A stretch of 64,000 nt of DNA from assembly GCA_016214145.1 (NCBI GenBank), contig JACRPA010000003.1:62001-126000 (forward strand). The letters run 5' to 3'. Within the stretch, counting starts at the first letter, position 1. Each line of letters starts with the position of its first letter. Of this stretch, positions 23,374 to 47,826 are shown in pieces. Source of the DNA: Rhodocyclales bacterium (GTDB lineage Bacteria > Pseudomonadota > Gammaproteobacteria > Burkholderiales > Rhodocyclaceae). The notes under the pieces are model-generated. The model had not been told where the DNA came from and ran no database searches. It worked only from the letters and a program-made list of their open reading frames with translations. The position numbers and the translations under genes are program-made.

Positions 23374-23415
23374 CGGACTATTGGGGTGATTACCTAGTTC
23401 TCCGGCGGTTGTCCC
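23374..23415 (+). promoter_or_regulatory. Candidate 42-bp operator, copy A (upstream of the histidine kinase)
   Basis: Shares the central GTGATTACCTAG and the right-hand GGTTGTCCCTGA with the site at 47785-47826. It ends 61 bp before the kinase ATG, suggesting autoregulation. Confidence 0.5.
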
Positions 23416-23476
23416 TGATTGATCCGGATGGGGAGGCTGTTAAGGTTGCATTGCACAATGGAGCAGTGTCGGCGAA

Positions 23477-24772
23477 ATGATCACTGGTAGCGACGCGATG
23501 TGGCTGGGATTTGTTGCCCTGTGGGGCGCGCTGACGGTCGCGCTGATCGCCCTTGCGGTGATGCTGCTCCGCCTGCGCGAGGCGGAGCAGCGGCTGCGCG
23601 ACAAGGAGGCCGAGCAGCAGGGCGTGCTGGACCGCCTGCAGGAGAACGAATACCGCCTTCGCACCATCATCGAATCCGAACCCGAGTGCGTCAAGCTGCA
23701 GGCCGCCGACGGCACCGTCCTGGAAATCAACCCGGCCGGGCTCAGGCTGGTGGACGCCGGCCGGCCGGAGGACATCATCGGCAAGAAGATCTATGACGTC
23801 GTCGCGCAGGAATACAAGGACATCTACCGGGAAAACATGCGGCGCGTCTTCGAAGGCGAAGCCGTGGTGTACGAGTTCAAGTCGATCACCCTCAAGGGCA
23901 GGACGTGCTGGATGGAGACGCATGCCGTGCCCTTGCGCGATGCGCGCGGCGCGGTCTACGCGCTGCTCGGCATCACGCGCGACATCACCGAACACAAGTG
24001 GGCCGAGGAGCAGGGGCGGCGGCACCAGACGGAACTGGCGCGGGTGGCCCGCCTGTCGACCATGGGCGAAATGGCCACCGGCCTGGCCCACGAACTCAAC
24101 CAGCCGCTCTCGGCGATCGCCAACTTCGCGCGCGGCTGCATCCGCCGGCTGCGCAGCGGCGATGTGGCGCCGGCCGACCTGATCGAGCCGCTCGAGGAGG
24201 TCTGCGAGCAGGCGGAGCGCGCCGGGGAGATCATGCGCCACGTGCGCGATTTCGTCCGCAAGAGCGAGCCGAGGATGACGGCCGTCGACATCAACCAGGT
24301 CGTGCGCAGCGTGGTCAAGTTCACCGAACTGGAAGCGCGCCAGCATGAAACGGTCGTGACGCTCCACCTGGCGCCGCAGCAGCCCCGGGTGTGGGCCGAT
24401 TCCATCATGGTCGAGCAGGTCATCTGCAACCTGGTGCGCAACGCCATGGAGGCGATGGCCGAGACGCGCTCCCTGCGCCGCGAGATCATGATCCGCACCG
24501 TGCCGCAGGGCGAGGACGCCATCGAAATCGAGGTCATCGACACCGGCCCCGGCATCGACGGCGCGGTCATCGACCAGGTCTTCGACCAGTTCTTCACCAC
24601 CAAGCCGGAAGGCGTCGGCATGGGCCTGTCGATCAGCCGTTCGATCGTCGAGTCGCATGGCGGCAGCATCCGCGCCGAGTCGCGGGCGGGCGGCGCCACG
24701 TTCCGCTTCACCCTGCAGGCCATTCCGCTCAGGTTGAGCAGCGATGAGCGACGCTACAGTCTTCATAGTTGA
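23477..24772 (+). CDS. PAS-containing sensor histidine kinase (FixL-like)
   Basis: A 431-residue kinase: one N-terminal membrane helix (MWLGFVALWGALTVALIALA), a coiled linker, a PAS domain (about 55-165), a HisKA domain with the phospho-accepting His205 in MATGLAHELNQPLSAI, and an ATPase domain with N-box NLVRNAMEAMAE, DTGPGID and GVGMGLSISRSIVE. There is no obvious heme-PAS signature, so the signal is unknown. It overlaps the response-regulator gene by 29 bp. The 42-bp site upstream recurs before the NO-reductase-like and formate dehydrogenase genes, suggesting what this pair controls (inference). Confidence 0.92.
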   Translation: MITGSDAMWLGFVALWGALTVALIALAVMLLRLREAEQRLRDKEAEQQGVLDRLQENEYRLRTIIESEPECVKLQAADGTVLEINPAGLRLVDAGRPEDIIGKKIYDVVAQEYKDIYRENMRRVFEGEAVVYEFKSITLKGRTCWMETHAVPLRDARGAVYALLGITRDITEHKWAEEQGRRHQTELARVARLSTMGEMATGLAHELNQPLSAIANFARGCIRRLRSGDVAPADLIEPLEEVCEQAERAGEIMRHVRDFVRKSEPRMTAVDINQVVRSVVKFTELEARQHETVVTLHLAPQQPRVWADSIMVEQVICNLVRNAMEAMAETRSLRREIMIRTVPQGEDAIEIEVIDTGPGIDGAVIDQVFDQFFTTKPEGVGMGLSISRSIVESHGGSIRAESRAGGATFRFTLQAIPLRLSSDERRYSLHS

Positions 24773-25355
24773 CGACGACCAGGCCGTCGCCCGCAGCCTG
24801 CGCTGGCTGATCGAGACGGTGCGGCTGAAGGTCGAGACCTTCGCTTCGGCGCAGGCGTTTCTCGACGGCTACGATGCGTCGAAACCGGGGTGCCTGGTGC
24901 TCGACGTGCGCATGCCGGGGATGAGCGGCCTGGAACTGCAGGAACGCCTCGCCGCGCGGCGCACCCACCACGTGCCGATCATCTTCATCACCGGCCACGG
25001 CGACGTGCAGATGGCGGTGCGGGCGGTGCAGGCCGGCGCCTTCGACTTCGTCGAGAAGCCCTTCAACGACCAGGACCTGCTCGACCGCATCCAGCGCGCC
25101 ATCGCCTTCGAAGGCGAGCAGCGCGGGCGGGAGGCGCATCGCGCCCAGTTGCGGGCGCTCTTCGCCAGCCTGACGCCGCGCGAGCGCGAGGTGCTCGATC
25201 TCGTCGTCGAGGGTCTGTCGAACAAGGCCATCGCCAACGCGCTGGGCTTGAGCGCCAAGACCGTGGAAGTGCATCGCGCCAAGGTGATGGAGAAGCTGCA
25301 CGCTCGCTCGCTCTCCGACCTGGTGAAGCTGGCCATGCAGCACCAGGCGGCATAG
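24744..25355 (+). CDS. FixJ/NarL-family response regulator
   Basis: A 203-residue two-domain regulator. The receiver has the acidic pocket DDD at 10-12, phospho-acceptor Asp54 in LVLDVRMPGMSG, Thr in FITGHGD and Lys in FVEKPF. The LuxR-type DNA-binding domain is LTPREREVLDLVVEGLSNKA with KTVEVHRAKVMEKL. It is the partner of the overlapping kinase. NarL/FixJ regulators often bind TACYY-type heptamers, and TACCTAG occurs in the shared 42-bp site, making this protein the first candidate for its binder (inference). Confidence 0.94.
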   Translation: MSDATVFIVDDDQAVARSLRWLIETVRLKVETFASAQAFLDGYDASKPGCLVLDVRMPGMSGLELQERLAARRTHHVPIIFITGHGDVQMAVRAVQAGAFDFVEKPFNDQDLLDRIQRAIAFEGEQRGREAHRAQLRALFASLTPREREVLDLVVEGLSNKAIANALGLSAKTVEVHRAKVMEKLHARSLSDLVKLAMQHQAA

Positions 25356-25368
25356 CCGCCATCCCGAA

Positions 25369-25394
25369 CGCCGTACTACAGCGACTGACTTTTC
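25369..25394 (-). repeat. R2 element, copy 4 (contains the lpd stop codon)
   Basis: On the minus strand AAAAGTCAGTCGCTGTAGTA followed by CGGCG. The lpd reading frame runs into it as KSQSL and stops at its TAG. Confidence 0.75.
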
Positions 25395-27770: not shown

Positions 27771-27803
27771 GGGACGATGCCCCCGTCCGATCCGGAATGT
27801 CCC
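27771..27803 (-). promoter_or_regulatory. Weak relative of the 42-bp operator, copy D (upstream of osmC)
   Basis: On the minus strand GGGACATTCCGGATC then, 9 bp closer than in the full sites, CATCGTCCC. The left half matches GGAACAATCAGGAT at about 11 of 14 positions. The spacing is one helical turn short, so this is tentative. Confidence 0.25.
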
Positions 27804-28699
27804 TATGTCAGGTAATGGTCAACCAGCAGCGCGGCGAAGAGCAGGAAGAGGTAGGTGATCGACCAGCGGAAGCTGGCCTGCGCCGCGCGGTCGCTGTAGC
27901 GGCGCAGCATGCGCCAGGCGTGGGCGATGAAGACGCCGTTCAGGACCAGCGCCGCGGCGAGATAGAAGGCGCCGCTCATGCCGATGAGAAAGGGCATCGT
28001 CGTCACCGCCGCCAGGCCCAGCGTGTAGGCGAAGATGCAGCGCAGCGTGTATTCGCGGCCGTACACCACCGGCAGCATCGGCAGTTTGGCGTCGGCGTAC
28101 TCGTGGGCGCGATAGAGCGCCAGCGACCAGAAGTGCGGCGGCGTCCACACGAAGACGATGAGGAACAGCAGCCAGGCCTCGCCCGGCGTCTGGCCGGCGA
28201 CGGCCGCCCAGCCGAGCACCGGCGGCATGGCGCCCGAGGCGCCGCCGATCACGATGTTCTGCGGCGTGCGCGGCTTCAGGATCACCGTGTACACGACGGC
28301 GTAGCCGACGAAGGTGGCCAGGGTCAGCCACATGGTGAGCGGGTTGACGAAGGCATGCAGCAGGGCCAGCCCCGCGCCGCCGATGGCGCCGGAGAGGATC
28401 AGGGTCTCCAGCGAATTGACTTCCCCGCGCGGCAGCGGGCGGTTGCGCGTGCGCGCCATCGCCGCGTCGATCTCCTGCTCGACGAGGCAGTTCACCGCGG
28501 CGGCGGCGCCCGCCACCAGGGCGATGCCGAGCGCGCCGGCGAAGAGGATCTGCAGCGGCACCATGCCCGGCGCGGCGAGGAACATGCCGATGACGGCGCA
28601 GAACACGATCAGGGTGTTGACCCGCGGCTTGGTCAGTCGCAGGTAGCGGCGCAGGCGTTCGGCCGGGCCGGGGCGGGCGGTGAGGATCGATTCGGCCAT
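27803..28699 (-). CDS. cyoE: Heme O synthase (protoheme IX farnesyltransferase)
   Basis: A 298-residue UbiA-superfamily membrane enzyme (CtaB/CyoE). The Asp-rich motif [20 protein letters not shown] and the second motif [19 protein letters not shown] are both present, with about nine membrane helices. It farnesylates heme B to heme O, needed by many heme-copper enzymes. ATG 28699 follows AGGAGATCTCCGCTT. It is divergent from the CuA/heme-copper pair at 28.9 kb, with a 42-bp shared site between them, so it probably supplies heme to that enzyme or to an oxidase elsewhere. Confidence 0.94.
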
Positions 28700-28764
28700 A
28701 AGCGGAGATCTCCTGATCGTTAATGGCCCGGCCAGTCTAGCCCCCCTGCCACTTCGTTCAATCG

Positions 28765-28806
28765 GGAACATCCTCAGTATCACTAAGTAAACATCCTGAT
28801 TGTTCC
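28765..28806 (-). promoter_or_regulatory. Candidate 42-bp operator, copy B (cyoE/CuA-subunit divergon)
   Basis: On the minus strand GGAACAATCAGGATG, then TTTACTTAG, ending ATGTTCC; the length and ends are identical to copy C at 47785-47826, with which the first 15 bases are identical. It lies 66 bp from cyoE and 89 bp from the CuA-subunit start. Confidence 0.6.
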
Positions 28807-28894
28807 TCCCGGCGCCGCGGCCTATCGTTCGCCTACTACAAGAGCGGCCGGACAATCCGGCCGTACCGACAAATCCGAGGAGGAGGCAATCGCC

Positions 28895-29455
28895 ATGTTG
28901 GACTACGTGTATACCGGCTGGGGCGCGTTCTGGGCGACCATGTTCATGTTCATCCCCTTTGCCCTGATGGCGTACTGGGTCATCCGCAGGAAAAGCCTGG
29001 TCGATACGGGCCCGACGCGGTTGCAGCCCAGCGAATTTGCGCCCATAGAGGGCATTTGGCTGACGTTCGCATTCATCTTCTTCGTCGTCGCCAACCTGGC
29101 CAGCCTGAAATTCATCCCGTGGGCCGCCGCCTCCGGCGCGACCGGCGGCGAGGCCGAGGTGCAAGTCGACTTCACGGCGAAGTCCTGGGCCTACGACATC
29201 TCCAACCGCCAGATCGAGGCCGGCAAGCCGGTGAGATTCTCCGGCCGGTCGAGCGACACCCAGCACGGCTTCGCCGTCTATCACCCGGACGGCAGGGTGC
29301 TGTTCACCATGCTGATGATGCCGGGCACCACCAAGCCCACGTCGGTCGTCTATACGTTCAAGGAGCCGGGCAAGTACGCGGTGCGCTGCCTCGAGTACTG
29401 CGGCATCGCCCACCACCGGATGCAGGACGAACTGACCGTCGTTAAAAGCAACTGA
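28895..29455 (+). CDS. CuA-containing subunit II of a heme-copper enzyme (NorS-like)
   Basis: A 186-residue membrane protein. Two helices ([20 protein letters not shown] and [20 protein letters not shown]) are followed by a cupredoxin domain with a complete CuA site: His in [10 protein letters not shown] and the exact CxExCGxxHxxM pattern in [12 protein letters not shown]. It accepts electrons from cytochrome c and passes them to subunit I, encoded 36 bp downstream. There is no CxxCH heme motif. The partner's unusual active site suggests an sNOR-type NO reductase rather than a cytochrome oxidase. GAGGAGG precedes the ATG. Confidence 0.85.
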
Positions 29456-29491: not shown

Positions 29492-31021
29492 ATGAGCATA
29501 GCCACCACCATCGTCAAGAGCACGCCGATCTTCGGCAAGATGTTTGCGGTCGACAAGAGCACCGGCCTGGAGGAGATCAACGCCTGGCCGGCGCTGATGA
29601 TCATGAGTTCCTTCGTCTGGCTCGTCGTCGCCGGCCTGCTTGGCCTGGTCATGCCGGCGACGCAGATCTTCGATCTCGGCTCCGACCACTTCTACACCAC
29701 GCTGACGCTGCACGGCGCGGCGCTGACCTTCCCCTTCTCGTTCCAGCTCATGATGGGCGTCGGCCTGCACCGCTCCGGCGGCTGCGTCGGCAAGCCGGTC
29801 ACCGGACTGTTTGCGGCGCTGTCCTGGCTGACGATGAACCTGGGCGCCGCCATCCTCACCGTCGCCGTCCTCATGGGCCTCAAGGTCAGCGTGGTGGTGA
29901 TGTTCCCCCTGCCCCTGGTCGGTGCGCAGATGGGCGTCTGGAGCATGGAGTCGGTGATCGTCGGCTTCACCGGCATCTACCTGGTGCTTGCCTGCATGAT
30001 CCTCTGCTACCCGCTGCTGGTGTTCAAGATGCTGTTCTTCGGCAAGAAGCGCGCGGAGCTCGTCCTCTCCGAGCGCTCGCTCAACGAGCCGGGCATGCTG
30101 GGCATGCTGCTCGCCGCCGCGACCCTGCTGCTGACGGGCCTGCCGCTGGTGGTGGTCGGCACGACGCTGCTGCTGGCGCTCTACAAGATCCTCCCCATGT
30201 CGCTCGCCGCCTGGGCGGCCGATCCGGTGGTGTTCCAATACACCTTCTATCTCTTCGCCCACAACCTGATGGAGGCGATGGCCCTGATGGTGGCGAGCGC
30301 GATGTATGCCACGCTGCCGCTCTACCTGGCCGACGGCTCGCGCAAGCTCTACAGCGAGAAGCTGGCCAACCTCGCCTTGTGGGTCCTGCTGGTGACGTCG
30401 GTCACCTCGGGCCTGCATCATTTCATCACCTTCTACCCGAACCAGCCGGCGGCCCTGTCCTACTGGGGCAACATCATGAGCTGGGGCACCGGCATGGGTG
30501 CGGCGATCAGCATCTTCACCATCCTCGCCACCATCTGGCAGCACGGCCTGAAGCCCGAGCCCGGCATCGTTGCCGTGCTCGTCGGCTGGGCGCTCTACAT
30601 CCTCGACGGCGCCAGCGCCATCGTCACCTCCAACATCGCCTGGACCTACCAGCTGCATGGCACCATGTGGCAGAGCGGCCATTTCATGACGGTCGTCCTC
30701 TCCATGTCCCTGATGTGGATGGGCGTGCTGTATCACCACTATCCGGTGATCACGGGCCGCAAGCTCGACGCGGGGCTGGGCAGCCTGTATATCAAGCTGA
30801 TGACCGTCGGCAGCTTCGGCGCGGCCATCGTCATGCTGGCGGGCGGGGCGGCCGGCATGCCGCGGCGCTTCGCCGACTGGCACCCGGAAGGCTGGATGCT
30901 CTACGGCAACCTCATCCTGGCCTTCGGCCTCATCATCGGCGCCTCGTTTGCCGTATATTTCTACAACCTGATGAAGTCGCGCGAGATCTCCGCGCCCATG
31001 GGCGAGCTGGCCCGGGCGTAA
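29492..31021 (+). CDS. Heme-copper superfamily subunit I with NOR-like active site (NorY-like)
   Basis: A 509-residue protein with about twelve hydrophobic helices. Expected heme-ligand histidines are present (His74 in [23 protein letters not shown] further on), with a His-His pair at 309-310 (SGLHHFITF). Where oxidases have H-P-E-V-Y with the cross-linked Tyr, this protein has His257 and Glu261 in FAHNLMEAM. His-x3-Glu is the FeB ligand pattern of nitric oxide reductases. With the CuA subunit upstream it fits the sNOR (NorSY) group; a divergent oxidase is the alternative. An intrinsic terminator follows. Confidence 0.82.
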
Positions 31022-33528: not shown

Positions 33529-33906
33529 ATGACTTTGCCTGCACGAACCGAACGGCCTCTGTATTGGGTCGGTTCAGCAAAGCGCGACTTCCTGGCGTTT
33601 CCCGAGGCGGTCGTGGGCGACGTGGGCTATCTGCTCGGAGTAGTGCAAGCGGGCGGGCAACCGCCGTCCGCAAAACCATGGAAGGGCGAGGGCCCCGGCG
33701 TATTCGAACTGGTGGAGGATTTCCGCGGGGACACCTATCGCGTGACCTACACGGTGCGGTTCGCCAAGGCGATTTATGTCCTGCACTGCTTCCAGAAGAA
33801 ATCGCCGTCAGGCATTCGCACGGCGAAAACGGACATCGAGCTCATCCATGAGCGATTGAAGACTGCAAGAAATGACTACGAGGTGCGCTATGGCAAGGAA
33901 GACTGA
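33529..33906 (+). CDS. higB: HigB-type toxin (RelE/ParE superfamily, Gp49-like)
   Basis: A 125-residue toxin of the HigB/phage Gp49-like group. LYWVGSAKRDFLAFPEAV near the start and FAKAIYVLHCFQKKSP with TAKTDIELIHERL near the end are the family's conserved blocks. Such toxins cut mRNA on the ribosome. The toxin comes first and overlaps the antitoxin gene by 17 bp, the usual HigBA order. It is flanked by same-orientation R2 elements at 33461 and 34248. Confidence 0.88.
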   Translation: MTLPARTERPLYWVGSAKRDFLAFPEAVVGDVGYLLGVVQAGGQPPSAKPWKGEGPGVFELVEDFRGDTYRVTYTVRFAKAIYVLHCFQKKSPSGIRTAKTDIELIHERLKTARNDYEVRYGKED

Positions 33907-34225
33907 GAAAGTGGAAGCCGGCACGGGCGATGTGTTCCATGACCTGGGATTCGCCGACGCGGGCGAGCGCAAGTTGCGCGTCCAACTCGCCATGCGGATC
34001 AACGACCTGATCAAGGAACGCAAGCTGACGCAGTCCGCAGTCGCCGAAATCTTCGGCATTCCCCAGCCCCACGTATCCGAGCTGCGCCACTACAAACTCA
34101 AACGCTTTTCGTCCGAGCGCCTGCTGCACTTCATCACCCAGCTCGACAGGGACGTGGAAATCGTCATCCGCCCAAAGGCAGCGAATCATGCTTCGGGTTT
34201 GGTGTCGGTGCTGGTCGCTGCGTAA
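33890..34225 (+). CDS. higA: HigA-type antitoxin (XRE helix-turn-helix)
   Basis: A 111-residue antitoxin. ATG 33890 is preferred; an upstream in-frame start at 33872 also exists. The XRE helix-turn-helix is MRINDLIKERKLTQSAVAEI followed by FGIPQPHVSELRHYKLKRFS. It neutralises HigB and probably binds the TATACC-N6-GGTATA palindrome in the promoter. It ends about 20 bp before an R2 element. Confidence 0.88.
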   Translation: MARKTEKVEAGTGDVFHDLGFADAGERKLRVQLAMRINDLIKERKLTQSAVAEIFGIPQPHVSELRHYKLKRFSSERLLHFITQLDRDVEIVIRPKAANHASGLVSVLVAA

Positions 34226-34247
34226 GCTGGCCGCGCGAGACGAACCG

Positions 34248-35774: not shown

Positions 35775-38700
35775 ATGGCCGGGAGCATGGTAACCTCGAT
35801 TGCAATGGCAAAATCGCACAGCAAGTTTGACAGTGTCCGGGCCTCGCGGGATGGCCACGAATTCCACGAAGCGTGGGTTGCGCGCAAGTGTTTGGGGCTG
35901 TTACTTCCCAAGGACGATCTGACTGGCGTCGCGATCGAAGGATTCGCCGGAGACGACCAGGACAAAGTAACGACAGAGGCGAACGAGATCGCAGACGCAG
36001 TACTGTATTACGGCAAGCGCGCCTCCTTCGAGCAAGCCCGTAGTGTCGTCGTTGTGCAGGTGAAGTACTCGAAGGCTGCGGAGCTCAAGCCGTTTCGAGC
36101 TGCGGACGCCAAGAAGACGCTAGGTAAGTTTGCAAGGGCATATCGCGCGTACAAGCGCCAGCATGGCACGACACAGGCACGGCAGAAGCTCCGCTTCGAG
36201 TTGGTCACCAATCGACCAATCCTGGACGAACTGACTGAAGCGCTCCACGGACTAACTTCCGGCATGACACTGCGTGGCACGGCGAAAACGCAAGCCACGC
36301 AGATTAAGACAGCGTGCAAGCTCGACGGTAAAGACCTCATCGAATTTGTCAGCCGCCTTCAGCTCGCCGGACTGACGGGCAACCTGCGAGAGACCAAGCA
36401 TCAGCTGGCGATGTCCCTTGCGGACTGGTCGCCCGCTCGTGACCCGATGGCCAGCGTCAGGTTGAATGCAATTAGACAGTTGGCGCGGGACAAGGCCGGT
36501 CTGGCCAACCAGCGTAGAAACCTCATATCGCGCACCGACATCCTGACGGCATTGGAACTTCAGGACGAAAGCGACCTGTTGCCGTGTCCGGCCAGCTTTC
36601 CCCGCGTAGGGGCGGTCGTCGAGCGGCAACAACTCGCCGATACCGTCGCGAGAATCCCGCAACTGGAGCGGCCGTTGGTCGTCCACGCTGATGGGGGCGT
36701 TGGCAAGACAGTTTTCATAAACTCCATTGCGGCGAGCCTGGCGCCGTCGCACGAAGTGGTGCTGTTTGACTGCTTTGGCATGGGCCAGTACCGTGCGCCT
36801 GGCGATGCAAGGCACCTCCCGCGACGCGGGCTGGTTCATATTGCAAATGATCTGGCCTGCCGCGGCCTTTGTGACCCTCTGCTGCCGACAACAGATAATG
36901 GCGACGACATCATTCGTGCCTTTCGTGGTCGATTGAGTCAAGCGGCGGAGACAATTCGACGGGCGCGATCGGATCGACAACTGGTTCTGCTGCTGGATGC
37001 GATCGACAACGCTGACGAGCACGCCCGAGACCGCCGCGAGGATTCCTTCCCCAGATTGCTCCTTGAGAGCATCGGTCTTGCCGGATCAATTCCTGGCGTG
37101 CAGCTCGTGGTGAGTGCGCGCAGCCACCGGCGGCATGCCGCCACCGGTGGTGTCGCATGCGAAGAGCTGGCACTGAGCACGTTCACGCCTGCCGAAACGG
37201 CCGAGTTTCTGCGCCATCGAGTGAAAAAGCTGACCGAAGTCAGTGTGCAAGTTGCTCAGTCTAGATCTCGCGGAAATGCTAGGGTGCTTGAACATCTGGC
37301 TGGGGAAGGTGCAGATCTTCTAGCACCGTCCGAGATCAATAAAGTCATCGAACTGGATGATCTGCTTCGAAAGCGCATTGCTGGCGCACTTTCGGAGGCG
37401 AGAATTCACGGCTACCGCGACGAGGACATCAAGACTTTTCTCGCCGGCTTGGCCACACTGCCGCCTCCGGTGCCCGTCAGAGAGTTCGCTGAGGTCAATC
37501 GGCTCTCTGAAGGGGCGATCAAGAGCTTTGCCGCCGATCTGTCCCCGCTGCTGGAACAAACCAAGCATGGGTTGATGTTCCGCGACGAGCCGACGGAGAC
37601 ACTGATTCGGCAAGATTATTCCGCCGAACCGTCTGCTCTTCGCGCGCTCGCCAACAACCTATACGGCATGCAAGGCACGTCGGTGTACGCCGCGACTACG
37701 TTGCCCGACTTGCTACAGCAACTGGGCGATGGCGAGCAATTGTTTCGACTTGCCTTCGACGAGCGACTCCCTGCCGCCATCAAGAGCGCAGTGGGCCAGC
37801 AGGCCATTCGGCACGCCCGACTCAAGGCGGCCATTGCGCACGCGGCTAGCCAAAGCGACTTGGATCGCTTAGTGCCGTTGTTGGTGGAGATGTCCACCCT
37901 CGCCGCCGTGGACCAGCGCGGCACGCAATACCTCCTCGACCACCCGGATCTCACCGTCGCGTCGGGTGATATCGATTCGGTACGGCGCCTGTTTGAAGTA
38001 CGCACAAAGTGGCCGGGAACCCGACATGCGAGGCTCGCTATCGCCCATGCCTTGACGGGTGATCTCGCGGACGCCTACCGCCACGTTCACCGGGTTGACG
38101 AGTGGAGATCGCACTACTTTGAGCAGGACGACGACTATCGACGGGACAACGGTAGTCCGAAGGCGCTGGATATGGCAGCAATTCCCTTTTGCCTGCTGGT
38201 CAAGGGCGATAGCGTCGCCGCAGCCCGGGACATTGCCGGCTGGGTGGACTGGTTCGCCTTCGAAGTCGCCGAGGAGGTGTTCGCGTTCGCGCGCTTAGGT
38301 GCCGCGGCTGGCGTCGTACGCCAGGACGCGCTCAGCAAGTTCATGACGGCACGGCCCACGCTCGGGGTGCTCGCCGCCGCCATTCGTTTCACCGACGGGG
38401 ATGAAGGATCGCAACGATCGCTGATCACTTCTCTGGCGGGAGCGTGCGCGAAAGAGCCCAAGGGAGCGAACCTTGGGAAGGAAGATTATCGGCCGCAAGC
38501 GCGCCCGATCGTTCGCGGCCTGCTCCGTGCGGCGTCTGTCGCCGTGGTGCGGGGGATGGACGGGGAGGCGAGCGCGATTCTTTCAGCGATCCAGCTACCG
38601 GTGCCCTCACTTCATACGTACATGGACAGTTACTGGACCGGCGACGTCTATCCGTTTCTGGCTCGGCAGGTGCTCGTCCGTGTGGCGGCAGGTGCGGTCG

Positions 38701-41700
38701 TGGACGAGCGAGACCTGCTTCCCGCCGAACTGTCCGATCTGGCCCAGAGCGTGCCTGCCGAGCTCCACGGCTCGGAGTTTCGGCGGGTATTGAAGGCAGA
38801 GCTCGAGAAGCGCCTCCGAGCGCGTCGAGCGGAAGGTGTCGAGAACTTCGACTACAGCACGAACAGCTCGACCGAGCGGTTCATCGACAACCGTCTGGAC
38901 GCCTGGCTACGGGTAGCGCTCGCGTTTGCGGAAGCCATCCGAGGTGTGCGCGGTGGTAAGAAGGGGTCGTTGACTCCATTGGTCGACCTTTGGACAGAGC
39001 TTCGCAACAAGCAGGACTACTACACCGGAGGCGTCGAAGCCCAGCGGCAACACAATGCGGTCGGAGAGCGCCTTCTGACGTTGGCGCTGGGCGCGGATTT
39101 CGCCTTGGACACGGTAGAGGTTCGGCGATACGTCGATGCCCTCAGCGGCGACGGGATGGTCGCCGTCCCGAGAGTCATTGAAGTCGTCGGGATTTTGGCC
39201 ACGCGACCGGCGTTTCAAGCGCTTGCGGGGACACTCGCCGTCCAGGCAAAAGCGGCGATCGAGCGCGAGGATGAGGTCGACCAACGCGCAAGCTACTTCG
39301 CGGCTCTTGGCAGGGCGATCTCGCCGGCCAGCCGCGAGGAGGCCGTCGAATACTTCCGGCGCGGCCTCGAGCAGATGGATGCCATCGGCTCCGGCGATTA
39401 CCAGTTCGCCAACGAGCTGATGCATTTCGCGAGTGCGCTTCATGGCGAGCAGCTCGCGGATCCGGACAGCCACACGCTGTCGAACATCTGCGAACTCAAC
39501 CTGGGGGAGGAGCACAAGTTCCATTGGGCGATGTACGGGGCCGCGATGGCCAAGGCTTCTGGTCTGAAAGGTCTGGCCAAGCTCGCTCGCTGGGAGGATC
39601 GCGAACGGATTTCTCTCGACTATACCCTGCTGCCTTACCTGCGCGCTCTGCTCATCAATGAACAGGTGGATCCAGCCATTGCGCTGACGATGCTTCGGGT
39701 TTCCAATCCGGCCGAGCTTTATGTGTGTGGAACCGAACAGCTAGTCGAGTCGCTGGAAGACAAAGACAGTGGCCGTTTGGGCGAATGGGCTGAGGCGCTG
39801 ATTGAGCAGTACCTGCAAGACAATCCTGGATCCTTCGCGTCCGATACACCACGAGCGCTGGCGCGTTTAGCGAAGAGCGCCCTGGGAGAGACATCCCGAG
39901 AGTACTCCTATCTCTCCGCTGTGGCCGCCAAGAACGAGGTGACGAGGGACGAGTACAACAACTTGAACAACTGGCGGGAGCCCTCGTCGCTCGTGCATGT
40001 CAAGGAAAGGCAAGCAGAGCAGGATGCGGCCTTGGGCTTTGTCCAGTCGCTGCTCGTCGATCTGGACCCTGTTGACGAACTGGCGGTCACTATGGCGATG
40101 ACGTTCCTGGAGGGACGCGGCGTCGGAATGCGCCTGGAGCGGCACCTCCTCGATCTATTGCGGCTGAAAGTCGTGTTCGAGGATTGGCCGACCTATGTCA
40201 GGATGATTGCCCGCCAAGAGTCGCTTGATCTCTACGACAAGCTTCACGAGCTTCGTGCGTGCAAGGACGCCTGGTCTGGGGCATCGAATGCGGTCGTGGC
40301 GGCACTGCAGGAGTGCGCTGACATCCTCGTGCGAGAGAACGCGTTCGAGTTCATTACCTTCGATAGTCTGTCGGCATCGCAGCTTAACGACCTGTCCGCG
40401 CTCTCTGGTGTCGATCGCCAAGCATTAATCATCGGCCTGGTCCAGGAATTCTCTCGTCCCAACACATCGATTCCCGCGTCCGTGTGGTTGAGTCTCGCCG
40501 CTGAATTCAATCGAAAGGCGACCCCCGGGGTGGGCCAGCAAGCGCTAACGCGGCTACTTAGCAGTGGTCCCGCCAAACTGGCGTCCTCGGCGGCGGATGG
40601 CGCCTGGCAGCCTGGCCTCTATCCTTCGGGGGAGGCCGTCGACGCCGCGGCCGGGCTTCTCTGGTTTGCCTTGGGGTCGCCAGATGCTTCCCGCCGTTGG
40701 ATGGCCGCCCACAGCCTTCGGACGGCGGTGAGGCTGGGCAGGGCCGATGTCCTCGAACAGGTCGTTGCGCGGTTCGACTGGACGCATGCGGGGGCGTTTC
40801 AGGCGAAGGAACTGCGGTTCTTCTACCTGCACGCGCAGCTCTGGCTCTTGATTGCTCTGGCGCGGATCGCGATCGATGACCCGGATAGCGTCGCCGGACA
40901 TCAAGCGCTGCTCGAGAAGATCGTCGTCGACACGATGGACCGCCATGTGCTGCGGAAGCATTTCGCCGCACTGGCCCTACTGGCGTGCACTGGCCATGGC
41001 CGGATCACGCTGGGGCCTGCGGCGTTGAAGGCCCTCAGAGACGTCAATCGTTCGCCGCATTCGATGAAGACGTCGAAGGACTACACCGGCAATTCGTTCT
41101 ACCAGTCGCGGCCCGAGGAGTACCCGGCGCCGGAGAGGGAGCTGCACCTGGATTATGACTTCGACAAGCACGAGGTCTCCGGCTTGAGCGATGTGTTCGG
41201 TCGATCGCGGTGGGAAACGGCGGATGCCATCAATGCCTGGGTGCGGCGGCACGATACAGAGATCACCTACATGTCGGATAGTGGAGCTCGGCGCGGATAC
41301 AGCCGCGATGGCTTTCGTGGCAATAGCGATAAGCATCACTCGTATGGCGAGCAGTTGTGCTGGCATGCCTTACACGCCGTCGCCGGCGAGTTTCTGGCCA
41401 AGTACCCCGTGGTTTGCCGTCCCTACGACGAAGACAGCCCTTGGGCCGAGTGGCTCAGTCGCCGTGTGCTGACGCACACTGAGAGCTTCTGGCTGGCCGA
41501 CGGCACAGATTGGCGGCCCGTGGATACCCGCATCAACCTGCGCGAGGCTGGCGAAAAGGGAGTGGTGGTGACCGGTGACCCGAGTAAGCTCCTTTCGCTA
41601 CTGGGCATTGGATCGTCGATTGGTGAGTGGTTGGTCGTGGATGGCGATTGGAACGCTATGGATGGCGTTGGCGTGCACGTGCAGTCGGCATTGGCGCCAA

Positions 41701-42272
41701 GCCGTAAGAGCGCGAACCTGGCCACGACGCTGGCAGCAATGGATCCATTCCAAGCCTATTTGCCACGGCTGCGGGGGTATGAGGATGCTGACCGTGGTTC
41801 AGCGCGCTCGCACGCGCCCTATCTGCCGTGGGTGGTGACGCAGGAATTGGACGCTCGGCTCGACGCGGCCGATACACTGGGCGTGGCCGAGGCGGCGCAA
41901 AGAGCCAGGCTCGCGAGCGCAGTGAATGCGTTCGGGCAACTTGCCTCGACCGACCCATTCCACCGAACTTGGAGCGACCCCCCCGGCAACGTCGTTGTGC
42001 GCTCGGAGGTGTGGGCTAGCCACACCGAAGGCCGCGAGGGCGGGCGTGGCAGCGGCTCACGATTGCAGTGTCGCACGACGCTACTCCGGGATTTTCTTTC
42101 CGCTAACGCGTCCCATCTGTTGCTTCTGGTGATCCTGCGACGCTACGAGCCTGGGTCTGGCAGCCGCGCGTCACGGTTTTGGCACACGACGGCCGTGGTG
42201 CGGGTGACCGAGTCACTCGAGTTCACCCTTCATCCGGGTCGAGTGAACGAACTGCACGAATCGAAGTTATAA
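35775..42272 (+). CDS. Giant nuclease-STAND NTPase (Avs/AVAST-like defence protein)
   Basis: About 2165 residues; the start is uncertain (ATG at 35775, 35787 or 35805; upstream GTG at 35712). Residues about 10-160 resemble a Cap4/DUF4297-type PD-(D/E)xK nuclease: SRDGHEFHEAWVARKCL, an acidic EGFAGDDQDKV stretch and VVVVQVKY with Lys97. A STAND ATPase follows with Walker A HADGGVGKTVF (Lys311), Walker B LVLLLDAIDNAD (Asp408) and a VVSARSH sensor. About 1600 C-terminal residues are helical-looking then unassigned, the expected sensor part. Avs proteins bind phage proteins and activate a nuclease; the exact type is not assigned. Confidence 0.75.
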   Translation: MAGSMVTSIAMAKSHSKFDSVRASRDGHEFHEAWVARKCLGLLLPKDDLTGVAIEGFAGDDQDKVTTEANEIADAVLYYGKRASFEQARSVVVVQVKYSKAAELKPFRAADAKKTLGKFARAYRAYKRQHGTTQARQKLRFELVTNRPILDELTEALHGLTSGMTLRGTAKTQATQIKTACKLDGKDLIEFVSRLQLAGLTGNLRETKHQLAMSLADWSPARDPMASVRLNAIRQLARDKAGLANQRRNLISRTDILTALELQDESDLLPCPASFPRVGAVVERQQLADTVARIPQLERPLVVHADGGVGKTVFINSIAASLAPSHEVVLFDCFGMGQYRAPGDARHLPRRGLVHIANDLACRGLCDPLLPTTDNGDDIIRAFRGRLSQAAETIRRARSDRQLVLLLDAIDNADEHARDRREDSFPRLLLESIGLAGSIPGVQLVVSARSHRRHAATGGVACEELALSTFTPAETAEFLRHRVKKLTEVSVQVAQSRSRGNARVLEHLAGEGADLLAPSEINKVIELDDLLRKRIAGALSEARIHGYRDEDIKTFLAGLATLPPPVPVREFAEVNRLSEGAIKSFAADLSPLLEQTKHGLMFRDEPTETLIRQDYSAEPSALRALANNLYGMQGTSVYAATTLPDLLQQLGDGEQLFRLAFDERLPAAIKSAVGQQAIRHARLKAAIAHAASQSDLDRLVPLLVEMSTLAAVDQRGTQYLLDHPDLTVASGDIDSVRRLFEVRTKWPGTRHARLAIAHALTGDLADAYRHVHRVDEWRSHYFEQDDDYRRDNGSPKALDMAAIPFCLLVKGDSVAAARDIAGWVDWFAFEVAEEVFAFARLGAAAGVVRQDALSKFMTARPTLGVLAAAIRFTDGDEGSQRSLITSLAGACAKEPKGANLGKEDYRPQARPIVRGLLRAASVAVVRGMDGEASAILSAIQLPVPSLHTYMDSYWTGDVYPFLARQVLVRVAAGAVVDERDLLPAELSDLAQSVPAELHGSEFRRVLKAELEKRLRARRAEGVENFDYSTNSSTERFIDNRLDAWLRVALAFAEAIRGVRGGKKGSLTPLVDLWTELRNKQDYYTGGVEAQRQHNAVGERLLTLALGADFALDTVEVRRYVDALSGDGMVAVPRVIEVVGILATRPAFQALAGTLAVQAKAAIEREDEVDQRASYFAALGRAISPASREEAVEYFRRGLEQMDAIGSGDYQFANELMHFASALHGEQLADPDSHTLSNICELNLGEEHKFHWAMYGAAMAKASGLKGLAKLARWEDRERISLDYTLLPYLRALLINEQVDPAIALTMLRVSNPAELYVCGTEQLVESLEDKDSGRLGEWAEALIEQYLQDNPGSFASDTPRALARLAKSALGETSREYSYLSAVAAKNEVTRDEYNNLNNWREPSSLVHVKERQAEQDAALGFVQSLLVDLDPVDELAVTMAMTFLEGRGVGMRLERHLLDLLRLKVVFEDWPTYVRMIARQESLDLYDKLHELRACKDAWSGASNAVVAALQECADILVRENAFEFITFDSLSASQLNDLSALSGVDRQALIIGLVQEFSRPNTSIPASVWLSLAAEFNRKATPGVGQQALTRLLSSGPAKLASSAADGAWQPGLYPSGEAVDAAAGLLWFALGSPDASRRWMAAHSLRTAVRLGRADVLEQVVARFDWTHAGAFQAKELRFFYLHAQLWLLIALARIAIDDPDSVAGHQALLEKIVVDTMDRHVLRKHFAALALLACTGHGRITLGPAALKALRDVNRSPHSMKTSKDYTGNSFYQSRPEEYPAPERELHLDYDFDKHEVSGLSDVFGRSRWETADAINAWVRRHDTEITYMSDSGARRGYSRDGFRGNSDKHHSYGEQLCWHALHAVAGEFLAKYPVVCRPYDEDSPWAEWLSRRVLTHTESFWLADGTDWRPVDTRINLREAGEKGVVVTGDPSKLLSLLGIGSSIGEWLVVDGDWNAMDGVGVHVQSALAPSRKSANLATTLAAMDPFQAYLPRLRGYEDADRGSARSHAPYLPWVVTQELDARLDAADTLGVAEAAQRARLASAVNAFGQLASTDPFHRTWSDPPGNVVVRSEVWASHTEGREGGRGSGSRLQCRTTLLRDFLSANASHLLLLVILRRYEPGSGSRASRFWHTTAVVRVTESLEFTLHPGRVNELHESKL

Positions 42273-42368
42273 GCGGCCTTGCACGCTAATGGAGGGAGTC
42301 ATGTGGTTCACTTCAAGCACCCTAAGGATCGTGTCGTGTATTTGCGAGGGACTGCTTCTGGGCGATAG
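42273..42368 (+). pseudogene. Possible hicA 3' remnant
   Basis: Directly after the giant gene's stop the frame reads NGGSHVVHFKHPKDRVV and ends at TAG. GSHxxxFKHP is the hallmark of HicA/YcfA RNA-binding toxins, but nothing upstream and no typical VPHP tail is present. A decayed fragment or chance. Confidence 0.22.
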
Positions 42369-42530
42369 TGGCCCGCGAGAAGATCATATGTGGCAGTCCG
42401 CTTCGGCCGAACAGCGGAAATACCCCCTGCTGCAATCTCGTTGCTTTTCCCGTGTAACACAGGCCGACCTCACCAAACATTCGGTTGATGTGACTGCCTC
42501 ATCTGGCGGAGCCCAGGTTGATTTTGCTCC

Positions 42531-42559
42531 TTGCCCGCAAGTAGCTTAAAAGCTACAAT
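42531..42559 (+). promoter_or_regulatory. Promoter/operator of the second RelE/HigA pair
   Basis: TTGCCC (42531-42536), a 17-bp spacer and TACAAT (42554-42559). The inverted repeat GTAGCTT-AA-AAGCTAC (42541-42556) overlaps the spacer and -10. The -10 ends 5 bp before the toxin ATG, so the message is probably leaderless. Confidence 0.6.
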
Positions 42560-42564
42560 ACCCC

Positions 42565-42888
42565 ATGATCGAAGTATTCCGCTACGTGGCCGAGCCCGGG
42601 TGCGAGCCGGTGACGGAGTGGCTCCAGACGCTGCAGGACAAGCGGGCGCAAGCCAGGATTCGTGTCCGTCTGAAGCGCCTGAAGGCCGGCATGTTCGGCG
42701 ATTGCGAGGCGGTTGGCGACGGCGTGCTCGAATTGCGCGAGCATCTGGGTGCGGGATACCGGGTGTATTTCGGCCGGCACGGGCAGACTGTCGTGATCCT
42801 GCTGTGCGGCGGAAGCAAGAAAACCCAGTCGTCGGACATCAAGACGGCCAGGCAGTATTGGGCCGACTGGAAACGGAGGCAGACATGA
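42565..42888 (+). CDS. RelE/HigB-family addiction-module toxin
   Basis: A 107-residue protein of the phage-derived Gp49-like/RelE group: EVFRYVAEPGCEPVTEWLQ, LGAGYRVYFGRHGQTVVILL and GGSKKTQSSDIKTARQYWAD are conserved blocks of the putative addiction-module killer family. It probably acts as a ribosome-dependent mRNA interferase. ATGA overlap with the antitoxin gene. It lies downstream of the giant STAND gene in the same orientation but has its own promoter. Confidence 0.88.
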   Translation: MIEVFRYVAEPGCEPVTEWLQTLQDKRAQARIRVRLKRLKAGMFGDCEAVGDGVLELREHLGAGYRVYFGRHGQTVVILLCGGSKKTQSSDIKTARQYWADWKRRQT

Positions 42889-43217
42889 GCAGGAAAGTGA
42901 AAGCGGCGGTTGCCCACCACGCGCGCGAGGTCGCGGAACTTCGCGCGGACCGCGAACTGGCGGTGGAATATCTCAAGGCCGCCATGGAATCCCTCGACGA
43001 TCCGGACGATCGCGCGGCAGGGCTGCTCGCGCTGCGCACCGTTGCCGAGGCCTACGGCGGGCTCGGCGCGGTGGCGGCCGAGGCGGGCATCAGCCGTGAA
43101 TCGCTCTACCGTGCCCTGTCCGCCAAGGGCAATCCGACCCTGAAGACCATCCTCGCCGTCCTCAAGGCCGTCGGCATGCGGCTGTCGGTGGAACCCGGCG
43201 AACGTCTCGCCGCCTGA
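42885..43217 (+). CDS. Addiction-module antidote, HigA/XRE type
   Basis: A 110-residue antitoxin with an N-terminal toxin-binding region and a C-terminal helix-turn-helix (YGGLGAVAAEAGISRESLYR and LSAKGNPTLKTILAVLKAVG), the standard layout for antidotes of this RelE group. Start ATG 42885 overlaps the toxin stop by four bases and is preceded by GGAGGC. It likely binds GTAGCTT-AA-AAGCTAC upstream of the toxin gene. Confidence 0.88.
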   Translation: MSRKVKAAVAHHAREVAELRADRELAVEYLKAAMESLDDPDDRAAGLLALRTVAEAYGGLGAVAAEAGISRESLYRALSAKGNPTLKTILAVLKAVGMRLSVEPGERLAA

Positions 43218-43267
43218 ACGTCGGCTGCCGCGATTGCGCGGCATCGCAATTCGCCAACCCAGCAGGG

Positions 43268-43292
43268 AAAGTCAGTCTGCGTGATACGGCGA
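43268..43292 (+). repeat. R2 element, copy 9 (right edge of the SIR2-STAND cassette)
   Basis: AAAGTCAGTCTGCGTGATA followed by CGGCGA, intergenic, 50 bp after the antidote gene; same orientation as copies 7, 8 and 10. Confidence 0.8.
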
Positions 43293-43307
43293 TCAACTGC
43301 CTTGCGA

Positions 43308-43330
43308 TTTATCAGACGCTGTTTGATAAA
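43308..43330. repeat. Inverted repeat TTTATCAGAC/GTTTGATAAA
   Basis: Ten-base arms with one mismatch around a 3-base centre, in the 334-bp gene-free stretch before the AAA ATPase. AT-rich compared with surroundings. Confidence 0.6.
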
Positions 43331-43345
43331 TTCGGACAGGTGGGA

Positions 43346-43370
43346 ATTTTGCAGACAGTGTCTGCAAAAT
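43346..43370. repeat. Perfect inverted repeat ATTTTGCAGACA-G-TGTCTGCAAAAT
   Basis: Twelve-base perfect arms around one base. Contains GCAGACAGTGTCTGC; a candidate protein-binding or resolution site beside the R2 element. No T-run follows that would make it a terminator. Confidence 0.7.
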
Positions 43371-43516
43371 CTCCTTTGAAGACACCGTATCATGGCCGGC
43401 ACACGGCGGTCGAGACGCTCATCGTCATGCGCGGGCGGTCATCTGGCAGGCTGAACCTGTGCTCCGGAGGCAGGAGCAGCCATGATTTGACCTGAATTAC
43501 TTAAATTATCGCAAGC

Positions 43517-43543
43517 TTGTAAAGTCAATAAACTTGATATAAC
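43517..43543 (+). promoter_or_regulatory. Candidate promoter of the AAA ATPase
   Basis: TTGTAA (43517-43522), a short 15-bp spacer and TATAAC (43538-43543), 8 bp before the ATG. No ribosome-binding site precedes the start, so a leaderless message is possible. Confidence 0.4.
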
Positions 43544-43551
43544 CTGCCGCC

Positions 43552-44742
43552 ATGGATCCGATCAAGAACCCCTACGCCCCTGGAGCGGGCACGCAGCCGC
43601 CGGAATTGGCGGGACGCGACGAGTTGCGCGAAACTGTCCGCATCGCGCTTGAACGAGTGCGGGCTGGCCGGCCCACCAAGAGCATCCTGATGGTCGGACT
43701 GCGGGGTGTGGGGAAAACGGTATTGCTGGACCGGCTGCGAGACGACGCCGAGGCGGTTGGAATTCAGACGCTCCGCGTGGAGGCCCCCGAGAGCCGCTCT
43801 CTGCCGGCCATTCTGGCCCCGCAATTACGGCAGGCGTTGTTGCGGCTGTCCAGGAATGAGCAGGCGAAGGAGTTCGCCCAGCGTGCCTTGCGCGGGCTGG
43901 CCGGCTTCGCCAAGGCGCTCAAGATCAAGTACCAGGACATCGAGGTGGGGCTGGACTTCGACCCGGAGCCTGGGCTGGCCGACAACGGCGATCTCGAACA
44001 CGACTTGCAGGCGCTGCTGGAAGTGACGGGCGCTGCCGCAAAGAAGGCCGGCACGGCGCTGGTCATGTTCGTGGATGAACTTCAGTATGTGGCCGAGGAA
44101 GAACTGGCGGCGCTGATCACGGCCTTGCACCGCACCGCTCAGCGCAGCCTGCCTGTTGTGCTGGTCGGCGCAGGCCTGCCTCAGTTGCCCGGCAAAATGG
44201 GTCGGGCCAAGTCTTACGCGGAGCGGTTGTTCGATTTCCCGCAAATCGGCCCGCTGCCCCGCGATGCTGCGCGCCTGGCGATCACCAAGCCGGCGCTGGA
44301 CGAAGGGGTGAGCGTGGATGAAGGCGCGCTCGATCGGATCATTCAGGAGACGCGCGGTTATCCCTATTTCCTGCAGGAATGGGGCAAGCACGCGTGGGAC
44401 ACGGCCGATGCTTCCCCGATCACGCTTCAGGATGTCGAACAGGCCACCGCGAGCGCAATCGCCGCACTGGACGAGAGTTTTTTCCGGGTTCGATTAGACC
44501 GATTGACCCCGCTGGAAAAGAAATACCTGCGCGCCATGGCCGAGCTCGGCTCCGGCCCGCACCGTTCCGGCGACATCGCTGAACAACTGGGCCGCGAAGT
44601 CACTTCGCTCGGACCCACCCGGAGCCAATTGATCGTCAAGGGCATGATCTGGAGTCCGAGCCACGGCGACACGGCCTTCACCGTTCCGCTATTCGATGAG
44701 TTCATGAAGCGAATCATGCCCGGCGACGATTGGAAGAGCTGA
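43552..44742 (+). CDS. Orphan AAA/STAND-like ATPase
   Basis: A 396-residue ATPase similar to the archaeal-type AAA ATPase group. Walker A is VGLRGVGKTVLLDRL (Lys55), Walker B LVMFVDELQYV (Asp175), sensor region LPVVLVGAGLPQL, lid about 240-290 (ETRGYPYFLQEWGKHAW) and a C-terminal winged-helix-like part (SGDIAEQLGREV). No effector domain is fused and no partner gene is adjacent; it stands alone between two R2 elements (43268 and 44745). Its role is unknown; relatives are often found in mobile or defence loci. Confidence 0.8.
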   Translation: MDPIKNPYAPGAGTQPPELAGRDELRETVRIALERVRAGRPTKSILMVGLRGVGKTVLLDRLRDDAEAVGIQTLRVEAPESRSLPAILAPQLRQALLRLSRNEQAKEFAQRALRGLAGFAKALKIKYQDIEVGLDFDPEPGLADNGDLEHDLQALLEVTGAAAKKAGTALVMFVDELQYVAEEELAALITALHRTAQRSLPVVLVGAGLPQLPGKMGRAKSYAERLFDFPQIGPLPRDAARLAITKPALDEGVSVDEGALDRIIQETRGYPYFLQEWGKHAWDTADASPITLQDVEQATASAIAALDESFFRVRLDRLTPLEKKYLRAMAELGSGPHRSGDIAEQLGREVTSLGPTRSQLIVKGMIWSPSHGDTAFTVPLFDEFMKRIMPGDDWKS

Positions 44743-46956: not shown

Positions 46957-46971
46957 TAGGAGAATTAACCG

Positions 46972-47124
46972 GCGCCCTTCGATACGCGCTTCGCGCTACT
47001 CAGGGCGAACGGGGGGGGTGTGCGGATTCCGTGCTTCGCGCAACTCAGGGCGAACGGAAGAGTGGTTGCCCATCCCACCCGTTCACGCTGAGTAGGCGGC
47101 TCTGCCGCCGTATCGAAGCGCCAG
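46972..47124. repeat. Complex inverted repeat (TTCGATACGCGCTTCGCGC type)
   Basis: CTTCGATACGC and GCTACTCAGGGCGAACGG on the left face CCGTTCACGCTGAGTAG and CGTATCGAAGC on the right, with an internal partial copy (CTTCGCGCAACTCAGGGCGAA). It fills the convergent gap between fghA and gfa and could terminate both. Confidence 0.75.
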
Positions 47125-47134
47125 GATTTGGTGA

Positions 47135-47707
47135 CTACGCCGCCTTCCTGCTCTTGGCGACGTGCGTGGATATCGCGTCCATCAGTGCCGGCGACAGGCA
47201 GTCGTAGGGTTCCAGTCCGAGCTGCTTCAGGCGTCCCCGCACGGCAGGCATTTGCGCCGGGTCGGTGCCGGTTTCGATGATGGAGGAAACGAAGGCCGCG
47301 AATTCCGGCGGCGACCAGCCGCTGCTGTCGGAGAGTTCGGTGTGCACGAAATCGAGGCCGTAGAACGGATGCGCCTTGTTCTCGATGCGGCCGAACATAT
47401 GCACCCCGCAGCCGGTGCAGGCGTGGCGCTGGATGGCCGCGCTGCTGTCGACGATCTTCAGCTTTTCCGGATGGGCCGTGACCTGCACCTTGTCGCGCGA
47501 AACGACGGCGACCTGCGAGAACAGCGCGCCGGCCGGCTTCCAGCACTTGCTGCAGCCGCAGGCGTGGTTGTGCGCGGTCTGCGCGCCGATGGTCACTTCG
47601 ACCTTGTCCTTGGCGCATTTGCAGTAAAGCTTGCCGCCGGCAAAACCGGCTGCGGCCGGCTTGATGCCGGCGTCGATCGACGGGTGAATCATTGCGGCAT
47701 TGCTCAT
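47135..47707 (-). CDS. gfa: Glutathione-dependent formaldehyde-activating enzyme
   Basis: A 190-residue Gfa/CENP-V-fold zinc protein. Zinc-binding Cys clusters are [19 protein letters not shown] and [14 protein letters not shown], the full Gfa pattern. Gfa speeds condensation of formaldehyde with glutathione, giving the substrate of AdhI. ATG 47707 is chosen over the upstream in-frame ATG at 47791 because the latter would overlap the regulatory region. It is divergent from the formate dehydrogenase genes with the 42-bp site between them, consistent with joint control of formaldehyde and formate oxidation. Confidence 0.93.
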
Positions 47708-47784
47708 GAATCGCTTCCTCCTCCCCGATAGGGATACGTTAGCCAAAAGAGAGACCGCCTCCAAAATAATCCGGCCGCCTTGCC

Positions 47785-47826
47785 GGAACAATCAGGATGA
47801 TTACCTAGGGACATGAAGGTTGTTCC
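47785..47826 (+). promoter_or_regulatory. Candidate 42-bp operator, copy C (gfa/formate dehydrogenase divergon)
   Basis: GGAACAATCAGGATG, then ATTACCTAG, ending AAGGTTGTTCC. Identical in its first 15 bases and in length to copy B on the other strand at 28765-28806. It lies 77 bp from the gfa start and 49 bp from the fdhB start. Confidence 0.6.

Follow-up and report, generated by a model that had tools for sequence, protein, structure and literature searches.

Background

For the FixJ response regulator of Sinorhizobium meliloti, TAAGTAATTTCCCTTA has been cited as a binding site, and at fixK the protein protects positions -69/-44 and -57/-31 (PMC4999443). A survey of nitric oxide (NO) regulators names HcpR, DNR, NnrR, NarXL, NarQP, NorR and NsrR, and its main text contains the words 'FixJ' and 'formaldehyde' 0 times (PMC1274295). 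A link between nitrosative and formaldehyde stress was raised in a review from the double activity of the AdhC/S-nitrosoglutathione reductase enzyme (PMC4776306), and CuA-type NO-reductase-like enzymes can be called cytochrome oxidases by annotation (PMC11388526, PMC8756737). The window analysed here is a stretch of 64,000 nucleotides from a Rhodocyclales bacterium (contig JACRPA010000003.1), in which three copies of one DNA element were found: site C before a histidine kinase gene, site A between ctaB and norS and site B before gfa. From the sequence evidence it is probable that an autoregulated FixJ/NarL-family two-component system uses this element as its operator, with regard both to the regulator that binds it and to the set of targets. 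One sensor-regulator pair probably controls itself, a NO-reductase-like enzyme and a formaldehyde-handling gene together.

Operator element in the window

The initial annotation described a 42-bp operator shared by the two-component system, the NO-reductase-like genes and formaldehyde/formate genes. The shared operator proved to be real and stronger than stated. Aligned over 42 bp, A and B were identical at 34 of 42 positions, and A/C and B/C at 27 of 42 each. A sequence-only model, R1, was built from 11 aligned sites, three of which were A, B and C. With filters off, R1 gave 12 matches in the window, of which A, C and B scored highest (Table 1) and the next scored 6.3 bits. A scan of the whole genome with the aligned sites, as the initial annotation had suggested, returned A, B and C alone at E values up to 10 (own genome of 3,422,993 bases in 12 contigs; 150 of 671 first-look candidates scored). 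In each family genome scanned in this way up to E 10, R1 scored 150 first-look candidates out of several hundred. When B and its right flank served as a DNA query against the own genome, the only matches at E ≤0.001 were B and A.

A consensus search of the window allowing up to 3 mismatches, for which 0 matches were expected by chance, gave a single match, B; the pattern used differed from A by more than 3. The core GATTACYTAG with 1 mismatch matched three times against 1.0 expected, a number reached by 12 of 100 shuffles. Therefore, the short core alone is not significant and the whole element is the evidence. A and B both span 42 bp as first described, but the full element is about 55 bp long and includes the probable -35 boxes. 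The described placement upstream of genes held for the kinase, ctaB/norS and gfa. Weaker copies claimed before adhI (44841) and osmC (27771) were not borne out: the adhI area scored 3.4-4.0 bits (E 5.4 and 3.5), which is chance level, and there was no R1 match at osmC up to E 10. Among the mapped R1 matches of the own, family and source genomes, none was at adhI or osmC.

Conservation across genomes

Among 150 family genomes (own included), kinase orthologs were found in G073, G010, G114, G001 and G117 (91, 80, 74, 75 and 71%, respectively) and weaker relatives in G065 (52%) and G070 (47%). The element was located upstream of the kinase in four of the five ortholog genomes, the exception being G114, and between ctaB and norS in four of five, G001 having no norY. 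R1 matches up to E 10 numbered 3, 2, 1, 3 and 4 in G073, G010, G114, G001 and G117, where one match in G001 (E 0.035) and one in G117 (E 0.45) were short and partial and are taken as chance. No R1 match was found in G121, a genome of the same genus with no kinase ortholog, or in G065, and G070 had one partial match (E 0.022). Sites at E ≤0.001 were present in 6 of the 150 family genomes, which were the same six with a kinase of at least 71%. In 399 order genomes searched with stricter filters, sites at E ≤0.01 were found in the own genome only, and a kinase at E ≤1e-85 in the own genome and G503 (47%) only.

Held-out loci were collected by kinase similarity alone and not by site, and R1 was run on 40 of 79 loci and on 16 source genomes. 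G152-G156 each showed three sites (E ≤1.2e-5): one at the kinase-regulator operon, one shared by ctaB and norSY and one upstream of gfa. On short contigs, G150 and G151 had one site each and G158 had two. G157 had one match (E 0.077), G164 had one (E 0.0068) that was not placed at a target, and G153 and G154 had one extra weak match each (E 0.30 and 0.068). No R1 site was found among the source genomes in G159, G163 (Panacagrimonas), G160, G161, G162 and G165 (Thiobacillus-labelled).

Overall, the kinase site was present in 14 of the 17 ortholog loci examined, the ctaB/norS site in 10 of 11 norS loci (exception L051) and the gfa site in all nine genomes where gfa and its upstream DNA were seen (own, G073, G001, G117 and G152-G156). 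For these counts, L052 was treated as a duplicate of L036 (G001 C32) and not counted again, while L049 and L050, from one metagenome-assembled genome (MAG), were counted as two kinase sites. G010 and G114 had no gfa at E ≤1e-40 and no gfa site and kept the norS site; G001 had no norY at E ≤1e-60 and no norS site and kept the gfa site.

A dispersed repeat or mobile sequence instead of an operator would explain similar copies within one region. Such a sequence would not be expected at orthologous positions in all of G073 and G152-G156, three copies in each, nor with divergence outside the conserved blocks and a fixed promoter spacing, and its probability is considered negligible.

Several related sequences were observed at these loci. 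In L051 (3031-3075, before norS, in a genome with no R1 match), a diverged left half, CTAGGAAGCACCCTAGTTGCCC, was seen by eye 17 bp from TATGGT. In G157, a Polaromonas MAG, a gfa-type operator (L146 near 1480-1700, E 0.077) with the 17-bp spacing kept precedes a reading frame that, by eye, resembles a shortened gfa and lies close to a copA-like gene. G001, in which norY was not found, carries a second kinase-regulator pair (46% and 45%) just downstream of gfa (L036 5429-8017). Four Thiobacillus-type kinase relatives (L054, L055, L067 and L069) share the palindrome-bearing GTTCCGATCGGA just upstream of the kinase match.

Predicted promoter architecture

A total of 34 sites were collected, 14 at the kinase, 10 at ctaB/norS and 10 at gfa, the last including the weak site of G157. 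Reading right, a TTG was located 28-29 bases from the start of the core. In all 14 kinase sites, this TTG was followed by TANNNT at a distance of exactly 16 bp. Reading left, TANNNT followed exactly 17 bp on in all 10 norS and all 10 gfa sites. The outer ATTG blocks are thus likely -35 elements with fixed spacing. A -35-like TTG at fixed spacing to a -10-like hexamer indicates that the element is a predicted promoter-proximal operator, which at ctaB/norS serves two divergent promoters. The left arm of the kinase sites, intended as a negative control, kept the TTG in 8 of 14.

The symmetry GGAACA...TGTTCC was considered as the inverted repeat of the element and was rejected, as it is only partial (22, 18 and 14 self-complementary positions of 42 in B, A and C). 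Better inverted arms across the collected sites were the left-hand CAATYRGG and the right-hand ATTG. The former was retained in 10/10 ctaB/norS, 8/10 gfa and 7/14 kinase sites. The latter was present at every kinase site (14/14) and every ctaB/norS site (10/10) but at none of the gfa sites (0/10), a pattern that would be expected of a -35.

Sensor kinase, response regulator and proposed binding of the operator

The kinase and regulator open reading frames (ORFs) overlap at 24744-24772. The regulator scored 111.9 bits with Response_reg and 76.5 bits with GerE, both above the Pfam cut-off, and 235.8 bits with the NCBIfam FixJ equivalog, below its cut-off of 255. The kinase scored 235.7 bits with the NCBIfam FixL equivalog, below the cut-off of 850. 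The nearest solved full-length relatives of the regulator in the PDB were 1yio and FixJ 5xso. The regulator segment SAKTVEVHRAKVM, which we take to be the recognition-helix region, was identical in 11 of 11 regulators of site-bearing genomes and changed in L048, L051 and L038.

The best match to the FixJ site TAAGTAATTTCCCTTA was found in one register at all 11 training sites, on the strand opposite the core, with 9-14 of 16 positions identical. Of 2000 base shuffles, 76, 31 and 15 reached the score at A, B and C, and 183, 2, 0, 16, 52, 5, 0 and 703 did so at the other eight training sites. The initial annotation had compared the middle of the element with NarL/FixJ-type heptamers and named the FixJ-like regulator as the natural candidate. 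This stretch is better viewed as belonging to a FixJ-like box (TARGTAAWCAYCCTRA) than as a NarL heptamer. The candidate was supported by the co-occurrence of sites and kinase, by the likeness to the FixJ box and by the autoregulatory site. Because the core resembles the FixJ box in one register, modestly at some sites, and SAKTVEVHRAKVM is identical in site-bearing genomes, the neighbouring FixJ-type response regulator is favoured as the binder, which these comparisons support without amounting to proof.

Alternatively, the operator could be bound by a different regulator whose gene lies elsewhere, such as a factor responsive to NO or formaldehyde, and the two-component system would then be just one of the targets of that regulator. 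The link between the regulator and the site is one that we infer from sequence, and L035 has a ctaB/norS site and a kinase gene without one, as this explanation would allow. It is nevertheless quite unlikely, given that the sites co-occur with the kinase across the 150 family and 399 order genomes searched, that the likeness to the FixJ box is in a fixed register, that SAKTVEVHRAKVM is invariant across the site-bearing genomes and that in G065 a changed element before the kinase accompanies a changed segment.

The G065 element (L038 10637-10680) is upstream of the 52% kinase and was not found by R1. It is diverged, carries TTGGGACTTTCCCTTA on the other strand, with 12 of 16 positions identical to the FixJ box (3 of 2000 shuffles), and stands beside the regulator with the changed DNA-binding segment.

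Predicted target genes

Site A, which the initial annotation had linked to NO-reductase-like genes, is predicted to serve both ctaB and norS. For site B, the formaldehyde gene gfa, the identity of which is well supported by its profile score, is the conserved target. Formate dehydrogenase was rejected as a target of B, as it is a divergent neighbour of gfa only in the own genome, G073 and G152 among the mapped loci.

The norS product reached 41.6 bits with NCBIfam CoxB, under the cut-off, with no Pfam hit. The norY product keeps the haem-copper histidines by reading, and its alignment to oxidases placed Glu261 at the Tyr position and Asn258 right after the His; H257, N258 and E261 were invariant in 10 of 10 aligned sequences. 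Because this alignment puts Glu261 in place of the oxidase Tyr and norS has a CuA-type motif, we infer an NO-reductase-like role for norSY. A published class table of NO reductases (NOR) gives Asn at the helix VI Tyr position for sNOR and Glu for cNOR/qNOR, and cupredoxin subunits are described for sNOR, gNOR and eNOR (PMC8756737). A CuA-type subunit together with Glu at the oxidase Tyr is a combination outside that table (PMC8756737) and possibly represents an unlisted class.

The norY profile reached only oxidases in the PDB at E ≤1. A predicted structure of norY from a 10-sequence alignment had a predicted local distance difference test score (pLDDT) of 61.9, which is too poor to settle the class, and with this model Foldseek gave 35 matches at E ≤0.001, described as oxidases or respiratory complexes. 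In a plasmid search with the norY protein, all matches were below 60% identity and none of 141 records covered 80%. Six haem-copper subunit genes are present in the own genome, including one that looks qNOR-like by eye. A haem O/A enzyme would be consistent with ctaB lying next to norS. A pyrroloquinoline quinone (PQQ) alcohol dehydrogenase, above cut-off and on the same contig, is a possible aldehyde source.

Table 1. Coordinates of the operator sites, predicted promoters, FixJ-box-like sequences and genes in the window
Feature	Position	Strand	Remarks
Operator C	23370..23424	+	Initial annotation 23374-23415; upstream of histidine kinase gene; R1 54.1 bits
Operator A	28756..28810	-	Initial annotation 28765-28806; common to divergent ctaB and norS promoters; R1 55.8 bits
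Operator B	47782..47833	+	Initial annotation 47785-47826; upstream of gfa; R1 49.9 bits
FixJ-box-like 16-mer, site C	23381..23396	-	11/16 to TAAGTAATTTCCCTTA
FixJ-box-like 16-mer, site A	28784..28799	+	11/16 to TAAGTAATTTCCCTTA
FixJ-box-like 16-mer, site B	47792..47807	-	11/16 to TAAGTAATTTCCCTTA
Predicted kinase promoter	23419..23446	+	TTGATC-16-TAAGGT; -35 inside operator C
Predicted ctaB promoter	28734..28761	-	TTGAAC-16-TAGACT
Predicted norS promoter	28800..28828	+	TTGTTC-17-TATCGT
Predicted gfa promoter	47763..47791	-	TTGTTC-17-TATTTT
Sensor histidine kinase	23477..24772	+	PAS, HisKA, HATPase (Pfam); one N-terminal hydrophobic helix read from sequence
FixJ-type response regulator	24744..25355	+	REC and LuxR/GerE (Pfam)
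ctaB/cyoE-like haem farnesyltransferase gene	27803..28699	-	ORF; name by recognition of sequence
norS-like subunit II	28895..29455	+	CuA-type motif (C-x3-C, H, M) read from sequence
norY-like haem-copper subunit I	29492..31021	+	Helix VI HNLME, with Glu aligned to the oxidase Tyr
gfa, S-(hydroxymethyl)glutathione synthase / formaldehyde-activating enzyme	47135..47707	-	TIGR02820 331 bits, cut-off 234.55

Proposed mechanism and its assessment

In the proposed mechanism, a stress signal would cause the PAS kinase to phosphorylate the response regulator, which would then bind to the FixJ-like box (TARGTAAWCAYCCTRATTG) as well as to the half facing it (GGWTGTYCCTGATTG). At the overlapping -35 the regulator would, as a class-II-type activator, make contact with sigma-70 RNA polymerase. 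From the shared operator, transcription would be switched on towards both ctaB and norS, and the kinase site would create a positive feedback loop. The products would be a haem-modifying enzyme, a CuA-type NO-reductase-like complex and a glutathione-formaldehyde enzyme.

If the regulator binds the element, activation is strongly favoured over repression. Repression by the same regulator, covering the -35 boxes and released on signal, would agree with the overlap of the element with the -35 hexamers and with the report that unphosphorylated FixJ binds and represses nif promoters in R. palustris (PMC13327599). This is considered rather improbable, as the hexamers are poor beyond the TTG (TTGTTC, TTGATC), which would suit activated promoters, and the FixJ protection at fixK lies at a place used for activation (PMC4999443).

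Several observations weigh against an activating FixJ-type operator with the target set proposed here. The ctaB promoters had TANNNT at 16 bp in only 5 of 10 sites and CAGACT at 17 bp in the other five, and in 5 of the 20 norS/gfa promoters the best-scoring hexamer against TATAAT was at 15 bp and not at 17. Of the eight left arms with TTG that served as control, five carried TANNNT at 16 bp and none at 17 bp, so that this control is unclean. The FixJ-box match was modest at some sites, for example 9 of 16 at L37ctaB (703 of 2000 shuffles), and, as the sites are homologous, agreement in register at 11 of them does not count as independent evidence. The six site-bearing family genomes supplied the training sites, and within them novelty is confined to the gfa sites of G073, G001 and G117; the information added by the family search is thus the third site of these genomes and the absence elsewhere. 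Three of the 17 kinase orthologs (L035, L048 and L051) had no upstream R1 site, L035 despite an unchanged regulator segment. Finally, G114 is 94% complete, so its absence of gfa is less sure.

The signal is most likely a reactive species that the target enzymes would handle, namely NO, formaldehyde or a glutathione adduct. NO and formaldehyde are equal candidates, since relatives keep either target without the other (G010 and G114; G001). More speculatively, and with low confidence, the two-component system, which is absent from the list of NO regulators in the survey cited above (PMC1274295), may be a dedicated sensor of a species at the crossing of NO and formaldehyde chemistry, such as a glutathione adduct. 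A bidirectional operator with built-in -35 boxes may then drive the glutathione-formaldehyde enzyme as well as a CuA-type NO reductase that has Glu in its active site.

The regulon predicted from these sequences is judged to be a new autoregulated one of FixJ/NarL type. Its unusual feature is that a CuA-type NO-reductase-like enzyme would be coupled to formaldehyde handling that depends on glutathione. No title on this operator or regulon was found among the literature matches listed. The regulon is short and fully predicted, with three operators and four promoters, and it suggests how CuA-type NO-reductase-like enzymes, which are poorly understood, may be controlled, and offers a possible genetic link between nitrosative and formaldehyde stress.

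Neighbouring features of the window

Between copA and adhI (33529-44742), the window carries a SIR2_2/ThsA-like gene (34521-35393), a 2186-aa NACHT protein matching Avs3a over residues 38-845 (E 2e-195), an AAA ATPase gene (43552-44742) and, by eye, a small toxin-antitoxin-like pair. This block is a probable anti-phage island. In L037 and L044, adhI follows copA within 0.9 kb. A nearly perfect palindrome, CTGTTCAC-TTAGTTTTG...CAAAACTAA-GTGAACAG, was located at 23257-23326, and similar sequences occur elsewhere in the own genome, at C4:77421 (window 15421-15470), C10:252064 and C6:124425; it may be a terminator or a small dispersed repeat.

Comparison with known systems

The oxygen-sensing FixLJ system of Sinorhizobium and Bradyrhizobium appears to be the nearest model of how the present system would work. 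Both have a FixJ-type regulator, a PAS kinase and a small regulon, the latter predicted in the present case, and the present sites carry a putative box, matching TAAGTAATTTCCCTTA at 9-14 of 16 positions in the training sites, just upstream of the -35 region. However, the kinase and regulator here scored below the NCBIfam FixL and FixJ cut-offs, and published FixJ targets include fixK and nifA (PMC4999443), whereas the predicted targets here are norSY/ctaB, gfa and the system itself.

FlhRS of Paracoccus and AfdRS/RfdRS of Rhodobacter also represent two-component control of glutathione-dependent formaldehyde genes (PMC4776306). Compared by description, the R and S genes of FlhRS/AfdRS are separated by an extra ORF, and adhI or flhA-fghA is under their control (PMC4776306), while the kinase and regulator ORFs here overlap and the predicted targets are gfa and an NO-reductase-like operon.

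The norSY-senC genes (sNOR) of ammonia oxidisers resemble the present operon in combining a cupredoxin subunit II with a haem-copper subunit I without the oxidase Tyr. Unlike sNOR, ctaB here is divergent from norS and a copA-like gene is next after norY (senC was not searched for), and the helix VI residue is Asn in sNOR (PMC8756737) but Glu here, as placed by alignment to oxidases and not to Nitrosomonas NorY.

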